Below, one piece after another: positions 18,715 through 22,764 of a stretch of 64,000 nucleotides of DNA. The stretch covers positions 55,046 through 119,045 of the forward strand of contig CATLHE010000006.1 of NCBI GenBank assembly GCA_949948895.1, given 5' to 3'. Every line of letters begins with the position of its first letter. Positions within the stretch are counted from its first letter, which is position 1. The stretch comes from an uncultured Christensenella sp. (GTDB lineage Bacteria > Bacillota > Clostridia > Christensenellales > Pumilibacteraceae). The translations under genes and the position numbers were made by a program. The notes below the pieces were generated by a model, which was given only the letters and a program-made list of their open reading frames with translations, had not been told where the DNA came from and made no database searches.

Positions 18715-20226
<1,512 letters not shown>

Positions 20227-20336: not shown

Positions 20337-20416
20337 CGTGCCATAAATCCGTCGCGCGTTATCCGACTTGCTAACGCTTTGTCGTATACGCGTATACGCT
20401 CGAAAGTAAGATATAA

Positions 20417-20537
20417 AAAAATCCCCTACATATAAACCGTAGGGGATTTTTATATGCCGCAACGCGTGCGGCGCTGTATATTGTAAAACAATCATCAAAT
20501 CGTGAGATAAGAAGTCGCTTTACATTAGTATTGTGTG
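20417..20537 (-). ncRNA. Structured repeat, copy 1 (putative small RNA)
   Basis: Read on the minus strand: a small ACAC/GTGT-type hairpin (here with a G-U pair), ATTGT-TTT-ACAAT hairpin, GCCGCA-N5-TGCGGC hairpin (20456-20472), then ATCCCCTAC/GTAGGGGAT followed by T7, i.e. an intrinsic terminator. Two more copies lie at 20797-20918 and 21872-21993. The terminator stem differs in sequence in each copy but still pairs, which supports RNA function. The 66-aa ORF in the track (MMIVLQYTAPHALRH...) is an alternative reading, but its reading frame is not maintained in copy 3. RNA family not recognised. Confidence 0.6.
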
Positions 20538-20631
20538 ACGATTGCCGTTGCTTTCTTCATCGATCAATGTTTAATTTTTATTTTAATTTGCGCGAAACAA
20601 CGTATAATATTTTTCCTGCTACATAAGATAT

Positions 20632-20677
20632 TATTGTAAGGTGACAGTGATTTTTATGAACTAATCGCCTTACAATA
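20632..20677. repeat. Inverted repeat TATTGTAAGG/CCTTACAATA
   Basis: Perfect 10-bp arms at 20632-20641 and 20668-20677 separated by 26 bp, in the 260-bp AT-rich spacer between structured-repeat copies 1 and 2. A TATAAT lies nearby (about 20603). It may be an operator, a small hairpin or a remnant end. Nothing else is recognised in 20538-20796. Confidence 0.5.
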
Positions 20678-20796
20678 GATCGCTCAATGCGATAGCGGAA
20701 ATTCCCCGAGCCGAGTTGTGCGGCGTCGTGGATTTTTCCATTTTGCGTTGAGTTGTATATTTTGACATTTAGTTCTTATCGTATTACTCAGAAATA

Positions 20797-20918
20797 AAGA
20801 TTCCCCACGGACAAACCGTAGGGAATCTTTTATATGCCGCAACGCGTGCGGCGCTGTATATCGTAAAACAATCATCAAATCGGTAGATCAGTTAATCGCT
20901 TTACACTAATATGGTGTG
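20797..20918 (-). ncRNA. Structured repeat, copy 2 (putative small RNA)
   Basis: Same order of hairpins as copy 1. The GCCGCA/TGCGGC stem (20836-20852) is identical. The terminator stem reads GATTCCC-T-ACGG/CCGT-G-GGGAATC on the minus strand, a different sequence with preserved pairing. It starts 40 bp downstream of the Xre gene on the same strand and could double as its 3' UTR and terminator. Confidence 0.6.
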
Positions 20919-20957
20919 CAGATAGACAGCGGTTTATTCACGGCGCGTAAAAGTTTT

Positions 20958-21167
20958 TTATTCTTGACAGAGAATATAATTCGCGTCTTCGTCTAGCAAT
21001 TTGCAAAGATTGGCGAGCGTATCCAATGCCGGCATTTTGCGCCCATATAAGTAGCTTGAAATCATTGACTGACATACTCCTATTTCTTTAGCGATTGCGG
21101 TCTGTGTCATTCCGCTTTGTTTTATTGTTTCTGCCAACCGATTTTGTATTTGTTCTATTGTGATCAC
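20958..21167 (-). CDS. Small Xre-family (Cro/C1-type) regulator
   Basis: 69 aa, essentially a single lambda-repressor-like helix-turn-helix: SGMTQTAIAKEIGVCQSMIS forms helices 2-3, and LYGRKMPALDTLANLCKLLD completes the fold. GTG start; the upstream GGGTGAT is a weak ribosome site and the start sits in a GTGATCAC palindrome that may be an operator. It is divergent from the two Cys-rich genes at 21324 and so could control them. Such small Xre proteins are typical of mobile elements and toxin-antitoxin or phage regulation. Confidence 0.85.
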   Translation of the reverse strand: MITIEQIQNRLAETIKQSGMTQTAIAKEIGVCQSMISSYLYGRKMPALDTLANLCKLLDEDANYILCQE

Positions 21168-21323
21168 TGATTATCACCCGAATTGTTTTTTTCAGTATAC
21201 AACTATTTGATGAAAAACGCTTAAAGTACAACCATTAGCCGTACAATTTAAATTTACAAAGATATTGTGATACGATTTGATTGTTGGCGGTAACGTAGAG
21301 CATTTATCAGGTGAGGTGTCGTT

Positions 21324-21596
21324 ATGAGAGAGCAAATATGTGAGTGTTACAGGTGCAGGCATTTTGACAGGTATTATGTCGTAAACGACGGCAGATACGT
21401 AAAGACGCGCTACGATATTTGTTTGAAGTCCAAGTCGAACGTGGAAATACATGACGGGTGCGACGGTTTTGATTATTATATTGCGCGGAAAAAGCATGAC
21501 AGATTATTGCTTTGCGATTGTTTAAACGTGTTATTGGCGCAAATTTCGGCTGTTCGCCAAACGTTGGATAATGAGCTTGACGACGAAGACAAATGA
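21324..21596 (+). CDS. Small Cys-rich protein 1, putative zinc-binding
   Basis: 90 aa, no recognised family. The N-terminus has C-x-C-x2-CRHF (residues 7-13), and further cysteines follow at ICLKSK and DGC, with a late CDC. The pattern suggests one zinc ribbon. The start has a strong GAGGTG site. It overlaps protein 2 by 26 bp, and the shared C-x2-CRH motif suggests the pair arose by duplication. The adjacent divergent Xre gene and flanking repeats point to an accessory or phage-like cassette. Function unknown. Confidence 0.7.
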   Translation: MREQICECYRCRHFDRYYVVNDGRYVKTRYDICLKSKSNVEIHDGCDGFDYYIARKKHDRLLLCDCLNVLLAQISAVRQTLDNELDDEDK

Positions 21597-21825
21597 AACA
21601 GCTTGCTTGAATTGCAGATTTTGCCGTCACGCTTTTCGGGCTATGGAGTATTTGTTCATAGAAAGTAAGGCGTTTTATTGCGTGTACTGCGATATATTGA
21701 CCGAACGCCAAAATATATGCCGTTATTATGAACCGATAGCCGATAAATGCGCGTTGACGGCAAAACAGATAGACCGCGCGGCGGAAGCAGTAAGAAATAT
21801 TAAAAAGTATGTGGAAGGTGAGTAA
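21571..21825 (+). CDS. Small Cys-rich protein 2, putative zinc-binding
   Basis: 84 aa, no recognised family. Motifs are C-x2-C-x2-CRHAF near residues 12-20, then YCVYCD and ICRYYEPIADKC, giving about eight Cys able to bind one or two zinc ions. The C-terminal part is a predicted helix (TAKQIDRAAEAVRNI). The start overlaps the end of protein 1, implying coupled translation; only a weak GGAT precedes the ATG. No membrane segment or signal. Confidence 0.65.
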   Translation: MSLTTKTNETACLNCRFCRHAFRAMEYLFIESKAFYCVYCDILTERQNICRYYEPIADKCALTAKQIDRAAEAVRNIKKYVEGE

Positions 21826-21871
21826 GCATTTGATTACGGGCTTCATGGCATGCGGAAATTATATAGCAACG

Positions 21872-21993
21872 AAAAACCCCGACGGTACGGGACCGACGGG
21901 GCAGTTCATTGCCGCAACGCGTGCGGCGTTCTATATTGTAAAACAATCATCAAATCAATAGATAAGAGGTCGCTTTACACTAGTATGGTGTGC
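21872..21993 (-). ncRNA. Structured repeat, copy 3 (putative small RNA)
   Basis: Carries the invariant GCCGCA/TGCGGC stem at 21911-21927. The minus-strand terminator stem is CCCCG-T-CGGT/ACCG-T-CGGGG followed by T5, a third sequence with the same fold. It lies about 45 bp past Cys-rich protein 2, so copies 2 and 3 bracket the Xre/Cys-rich cassette as direct repeats. There is no conserved ORF: the short frame seen in copies 1 and 2 stops after 14 codons here. Confidence 0.6.
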
Positions 21994-22024
21994 AGATGCA
22001 CATGGGATTATTCGCGGATTGTAA

Positions 22025-22100: not shown

Positions 22101-22141
22101 TAGCGGGGCATGGTGAGGTGTATCGTTTGTTTTGCGTTTCA

Positions 22142-22200
22142 TATGTGCGGCGGTTCGCCTAGATTCTTCGCCTATGGCTCAGAATGACAGGAAACCATAT
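22142..22200 (+). repeat. Repeat A, left half only
   Basis: Near-identical to 2338-2390 (GCGGCGGTTCGCCTAGATTC through AATGACAGGAAACCATAT), but without the right half; the sequence diverges into GTAACGCC instead. Confidence 0.75.
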
Positions 22201-22239
22201 GTAACGCCTTTATTCGGGTGTCACGTAAAATAAATCATA

Positions 22240-22400
22240 ACGTAAACACACGACAAAAACAATCTGTGATTGCAAGCTGTGCTTTGCGGCGTGCCGAGTC
22301 GTCACGCCCTACGAACAGGCGGCGAGTTATATCAAGTACAACGTTAGCCCGCCAACCAAATGTTGGACGTATGTCGTGTGTGGGCGTGGTCGAGGAATGG
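22240..22400. repeat. Repeat B, inverted and direct units
   Basis: An inverted unit (ACACACGACAAAAACAATC, with CAATC-TGT-GATTG hairpin) faces a direct unit (CCAAC-CAAAT-GTTGG hairpin, then GTATGTCGTGTGTGGGCG). The hairpin sequences differ between units but keep pairing. No gene is visible in 21994-22897 apart from repeats. Confidence 0.65.
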
Positions 22401-22463
22401 CGGTGCGCTCGAATAATTGCGGCGCGTGGAGAGGGGTGACAAGTGGTTTGGCGTTTACGTTCT

Positions 22464-22693
22464 GCGGCGGGTCGCCTAGATTCTTCGCCGATGGCTCAGA
22501 ATGGCAAGAAACCATATGCAAAGCAGTGAACAAAGACAGACATTGAGCAGAATATCCTACGCCATTTTACCTGTCATCCTGAGGCGAAGCCGAAGGATCT
22601 AGGGCGTTAGCCCGCATAGTTAGGGTAACGTTTGTTTTGTGTGTCAATCCTGCGGCGGTTCGCCTAGATTCTTCACTGCGTTCAGAATGACAA
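22464..22693 (+). repeat. Composite MITE-like repeat A, second copy
   Basis: Same left-right-left architecture and orientation as 2338-2580. About 60 bp around the right half are identical (CAGAATATCCTACGCCATTT onward) and a further ~45 bp differ at only a few positions. The two copies are 20 kb apart as direct repeats. Confidence 0.8.
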
Positions 22694-22764
22694 AAGGACG
22701 GCAAAAACCGTCCATAAATATGCCATGTAATTATTCGGGTGTCATGCAATATTTCCGACAATGC

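Follow-up and report, generated by a model that had tools for sequence, protein, structure and literature searches.

Repeats beside the solitary 16S rRNA gene (rrs) of the window, the whole 64-kb stretch of DNA that was analysed, form on sequence grounds a lineage-specific small RNA (sRNA) family that is new to Rfam and occurs throughout a single genus of spore-forming, uncultured Clostridia from the gut. The promoters resemble those of the sigma-G (forespore) type, and we consider it probable that they are stand-alone, lineage-specific sRNAs that would be transcribed by sigma-G in the forespore, late in sporulation, and would act in trans. The family is new, but its kind, the forespore sRNA, is already known from CsfG and Bvs196. 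The genomes compared are draft MAGs.

The initial annotation had described three repeats at this locus, which are indeed present where it placed them; its list was corrected by adding a plus-strand copy within the window (copy 4) and a fifth one elsewhere in the genome, on C12 (Table 1). The genome of the window (G000) thus carries five copies in all, four of them in one cluster. BLAST searches of the genome retrieved copies 1 to 3 only, and copies 4 and 5 needed a covariance model. The cluster begins 190 bases past the 3' end of the 16S gene, which is the only 16S match in this genome, and copies 1 to 3 converge on it. On their 5' side, the copies end at the promoter, with a predicted start about 14 nt inside the 5' boundary drawn initially. 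Folding of the minus strand of copies 1 to 3 was 4.0 to 6.5 standard deviations better than that of dinucleotide shuffles. Between copies 2 and 3 are three ORFs (20958-21167(-), 21324-21596(+) and 21571-21825(+)), namely one small repressor-like gene (HTH_3) and two short, cysteine-rich ORFs that match no family; together they may represent a small insertion within the cluster.

Table 1. Coordinates of the 16S rRNA genes, RNA copies, promoters and hairpins in the window, and of selected features elsewhere
Feature	Position	Strand	Details
Solitary 16S rRNA gene (rrs)	18715-20226	+	Rfam RF00177, 1560 bits
sRNA copy 1 (-10 region through terminator)	20416-20537	-	predicted transcript 20523 to ~20416; R1 52 bits, R2 87 bits; folding z -6.5
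sRNA copy 2	20795-20918	-	predicted transcript 20904 to ~20795; R1 42 bits, R2 73 bits; folding z -6.4
sRNA copy 3	21871-21992	-	predicted transcript 21978 to ~21871; R1 34 bits, R2 64 bits; folding z -4.0
Divergent copy 4 (strand opposite to copies 1-3)	20622-20738	+	predicted transcript from 20636; R1 37 bits, R2 64 bits
Copy 5	G000:C12:22479-22593		found with R1
Sigma-G-like promoter, copy 2	20910-20939	-	GAATA (20939-20935) N18 CACCATA (20916-20910)
Sigma-G-like promoter, copy 3	21984-22013	-	GAATA (22013-22009) N18 CACCATA (21990-21984)
Promoter, copy 4	20602-20630	+	GTATA N17 TAAGATA; -10 off CANNNTA at first base
P2 hairpin, copy 2	20836-20852	-	GCCGCA-CGCGT-TGCGGC; counterpart of UCGC/GCGA in relatives
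P2 equivalents, other minus-strand window copies	20456-20472; 21911-21927	-	
16S rRNA genes in stretches of relatives (G017, G002)	L116: 4051-5563; L119: 9789-11301		
Subfamily B member	L036:1170-1348	+	
Subfamily B member	L008:220-396	-	
Subfamily B member	L033:1267-1443	+	
Subfamily B member	L006:1266-1440	+	
Subfamily B member	L047:1501-1679	+	
Subfamily B member	L057:1501-1680	+	
Shortened member (G001)	L015:3465-3560	+	P1 and terminator

The location beside rrs is shared by relatives. Eight genomes have a readable 16S 3' flank (G000, G017, G002, G001, G004, G005, G009 and G008) and all of them carry RNA copies there, with at least one convergent copy each and the nearest copy 0.2-2.8 kb from the 16S gene; in G013, the flank is limited to 560 bases, with no copy within them. 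Many other copies are found near contig ends or beside ABC-transporter and flotillin-like genes, both of which follow the G017 cluster, and a flotillin-like gene also comes after the cluster in the window. Some copies are located away from 16S (G000:C12, G018:C34 and G010). Most flanking genes point towards the RNAs, and no shared gene lies downstream of them on the same strand. The 16S gene stands alone, with no 23S, 5S or tRNA match in the 64-kb window or in 14-16 kb of G017 and G002, and unlinked rRNA genes appear to be typical of the genus.

Covariance searches were carried out with two models. Model R1, built from twelve relatives with the window copies left out (alignment A4), recovered copies 1, 2 and 3 at E values of 9e-8, 7e-6 and 2.4e-4, and copy 4 at 6e-5. 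The training set of model R2 comprised 28 sequences, window copies 1, 2 and 4 among them, and this model scored the four copies of the window at 64-87 bits, the next match having an E value of 0.35. Members detected with R1 occur in 19 of the 20 genomes of the genus, at up to about 5 copies per genome, and in none of 54 genomes across 17 other genera of the family when stricter filters were applied. When 84,980 species genomes were scanned for a degenerate pattern of 23 bases taken from the 5' end, 15 stretches were returned; 12 of these show the RNA features, and L016, L021 and L024 are chance matches. Three weak R2 matches in other genera (L138-L140) were discarded, being devoid of promoter and P1. 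A phage origin was also rejected, with no blastn match in phages and two IMG/VR pattern matches devoid of the structure. In Rfam 15, no family reached the gathering threshold, either for the window copies, the 16S gene being the only match of the window, or for the RNA copies of relatives, and the matches below the threshold were scattered; the element had thus rightly been called unrecognised. Identity with 6S RNA, likewise a small structured bacterial RNA, was dismissed, the genome having a separate 6S match on C17.

Members of the family share the same architecture, with a stem P1 (GUAARGC/GCYUUAC) followed by a hairpin P2 (UCGC/GCGA) and an intrinsic terminator. Covariation was assessed with 28 non-identical sequences in an alignment fitted to the structure, which favours the result: over P1, P2 and the terminator, 91.8% of cells form standard pairs versus 81.5% in shuffles, double-sided changes occur in 11 of the 20 pairs, and none of 500 shuffles reaches any of these measures. 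When partners were slid by 1-3 columns as a control, pairing dropped to 28-44%. The strongest covariation was found in the terminator and in P2, where UCGC/GCGA is replaced by CCGC/GCGG in window copy 1. The sequence of P1 is mostly invariant, with one pair switching from AU to GC, and the P1 stem of copy 4 (GUAAGGUGA/UCGCCUUAC) shows compensatory change when set against the other copies. Because P1 and P2 covary, the RNA itself was taken to be under selection. The loop of P1 differs in sequence between species, which was counted against the favoured reading.

These data also bear on the structures drawn initially. The GCCGCA/TGCGGC hairpin is invariant across copies 1 to 3, as described, and terminator stems that differ in sequence yet stay paired are a correct observation that extends genus-wide. 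The ATTGT/ACAAT hairpin had to be abandoned: it pairs in 40% of cells among the 28 sequences, no better than shuffles, and most of its bases belong to a longer helix, GUAAAGC/GYUUUAC, which is paired in 96% of cells and of which they form the 3' strand. The more general proposal of minus-strand structured sRNAs with intrinsic terminators gained support from an independent covariance model, genus-wide covariation and a promoter in register. Typical sRNA features are present, namely an own promoter, a conserved structure, an intrinsic terminator and the absence of coding capacity.

In an alignment of 42 members by their 5' ends, P1 is preceded by an A/T tract and by two conserved blocks, and its 5' strand begins where transcription would be expected to start. 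Among the 40 members in register, the -35 block reads GHATA in 39 and the -10 block CANNNTA in 39, both being present in 38, with a spacing of 17 (25 members) or 18 (15 members). Only window copies 1 and 4 fall short, the former through a decayed -35 (GAAGA at 20558-20554), which may make it weak, and the latter through its -10 (TAAGATA); both departures were counted against the sigma-G reading. The pattern agrees with the sigma-G consensus of B. subtilis, GHATR-N17/18-CATWHTA; at the third position of the -10, most RNAs have A or C against the T of this consensus, which was likewise counted against sigma-G. An alternative -10 register, CATACTA, provides a perfect sigma-G -10 in some copies, and was set aside because it would be spaced about 20-21 from GHATA and lacks a conserved first base. 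Counting both strands, the 64 kb contain only six matches of the looser pattern GHATR-N17/18-CANNNTA, namely those of copies 2 and 3 and four others, so that its background is low. An ordinary promoter looks different in this genome, since the canonical TTGACA-N17-TAAACT is found upstream of rrs, and a sigma-A promoter was rejected for the RNAs, which do not carry this canonical sequence.

Consistent with a forespore promoter, the genome of the window encodes SigF, SigE, SigG, SigK, SpoIIGA and SpoIIAB as best NCBIfam matches, those of SigG and SigF scoring below the curated cut-offs of NCBIfam itself. SpoVAC/SpoVAE were detected in 19 of the 20 genomes of the genus and SpoIIR in 18. None of the 20 encodes a detectable alpha/beta SASP (PF00269), which makes their spore programme unusual, a point counted against the forespore reading; for want of SASP genes, spoVA and spoIIR were used as promoter controls. 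GHATA-N18-CAAATTA was found upstream of spoVAC in 17 of 19 genomes, whereas the 18 regions upstream of spoIIR contained two scattered matches only. Since spoVA is a member of the sigma-G regulon in C. difficile (PMC3789822) and has the same type of promoter as the RNAs, the latter can be assigned the kind of promoter that serves a sigma-G gene. Unlike the RNAs, the spoVA operon is protein-coding. A contribution of sigma-F is also conceivable, as the consensus sequences of sigma-F and sigma-G overlap in C. difficile (PMC7438776).

In the favoured reading, each unit consists of an A/T tract and a sigma-G-type promoter, GHATA-N17/18-CANNNTA, from which the transcript is predicted to start at the first pair of P1. 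This stem encloses a variable loop and is followed by the short hairpin P2 and by an intrinsic terminator with a freely drifting stem. RNA polymerase carrying sigma-G would transcribe the RNAs in the forespore during late sporulation, and the P1 loop and single-stranded linkers may pair with forespore mRNAs in trans, as proposed for CsfG and Bvs196. The sequences themselves show the family, its structure, the promoter pattern in register with P1, the genes for sporulation sigma factors and the position next to rrs; the forespore timing, the exact start site, the independence of the sRNAs, the action in trans and the nature of the targets are what we infer. A bulk role in the spore, for instance that of a dormancy RNA related to the ribosome or to rRNA instead of an ordinary base-pairing regulator, is unlikely; it would fall to a multicopy, genus-wide family of forespore RNAs amplified in the locus downstream of the only 16S gene, in spore-formers with no detectable alpha/beta SASPs. 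Very few forespore sRNAs are known, and those found in our literature search come from Bacillus. The present family is structurally defined and absent from Rfam, and a promoter of recognisable forespore type marks it throughout a genus of gut Clostridia that are uncultured; with the covariance model, the rule for the promoter and the locus kept in synteny, spore-specific RNA regulation in these bacteria becomes testable in existing metatranscriptomes.

The proximity of rrs raises the question of a local role, in which RNA polymerase with sigma-G would run towards the 3' end of this gene and thereby damp or insulate rRNA transcription in the forespore, the RNA being incidental. Such a role would account for the convergence of at least one copy on 16S in all eight genomes with a useful flank and would suit a 16S gene that is solitary and single-copy in G000, but in G002 and G004 the nearest copy lies as far as 2-2.8 kb off, window copy 4 and one G001 copy are co-directional with 16S, and further copies are found elsewhere, as on C12. 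Every copy also has its own terminator, and both P1 and P2 covary. A local effect on 16S would leave the distant copies, the separate terminators and the covariation at the RNA level unexplained, and we regard it as unlikely. The repeats might otherwise be mobile or dispersed sequences in which a hairpin and a terminator are present by chance, as the initial annotation had suggested by referring to mobile RNA-encoding repeats. Several copies per genome, in tandem and in both orientations, together with a different short dispersed repeat close by (22120-22700), are in line with this suggestion, which we nevertheless find very improbable: copies do not exceed about 5 per genome, no transposase was seen among the three ORFs adjoining the copies and no terminal repeats in an unsystematic look, synteny with rrs, the ABC transporter and the flotillin-like gene is often kept, and the conserved part runs from promoter to terminator, with a covariation that argues against mere dispersal. 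With most copies in one conserved locus beside rrs, local duplication is enough to explain their number.

Cis-acting leader RNAs or riboswitches would display the same series of promoter, structured domain and terminator, and the conserved internal loops of the longer subfamily B would not be out of place in such elements; because most neighbours are oriented towards the RNAs, which are not followed by any shared gene on their own strand, this reading was judged highly unlikely. Coding by the MIVL-QYTAPHALR frame, which is open in copies 1 and 2, can practically be dismissed, since the frame runs into the terminator in these two copies, meets a stop after 14 codons in copy 3, and is lost in the relatives inspected, whose RNA pairing is kept.

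As putative forespore sRNAs, the RNAs resemble CsfG, the ylbH element of Bacillaceae, which is an intergenic forespore sRNA of conserved structure under sigma-F/sigma-G control. CsfG, which Rfam includes under the name ylbH, did not appear among the matches listed for the window region (E<=5) or for a relative (E<=1). The present RNAs differ by their lineage, their three-domain P1-P2-terminator plan and their multiple copies beside rrs, and were set apart from CsfG by description. Bvs196 (S547) of Bacillus velezensis is also a forespore sRNA with a conserved structure, mainly under sigma-G; set apart by description, it is 294 nt long and widespread in Bacillus, whereas the present RNAs are lineage-specific and about 105 nt (subfamily A) or 165 nt (subfamily B) long. 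Both are known forespore sRNAs under sigma-F/G (PMC9147052; for CsfG, also PMC3574147). CsfG is reported to have no identified target, and Bvs196 affects spore resistance (PMC9147052).

Subfamily B, which spans about 178 nt from the common 5' motif, has the promoter type, P1 and P2-like hairpin of subfamily A, and differs by a larger P1 interior, conserved internal loops (GGGUUUACGAUAGGU...ACCUCCUACCC) and CCUCC-rich stretches. Its members have no Rfam match and are scored weakly by R1 (E about 2e-4 to 0.1); none was found in the window with R1 or R2. A shortened member in G001 has P1 and the terminator, apparently without a separate P2 hairpin. Subfamily B often adjoins an A copy. The dispersed repeat at 22120-22700 ('CGGCGGTTCGCCTAGATTCTTCGCC..GGCTCAGAATGACA') is present in several copies, and similar sequence flanks RNA copies in relatives.
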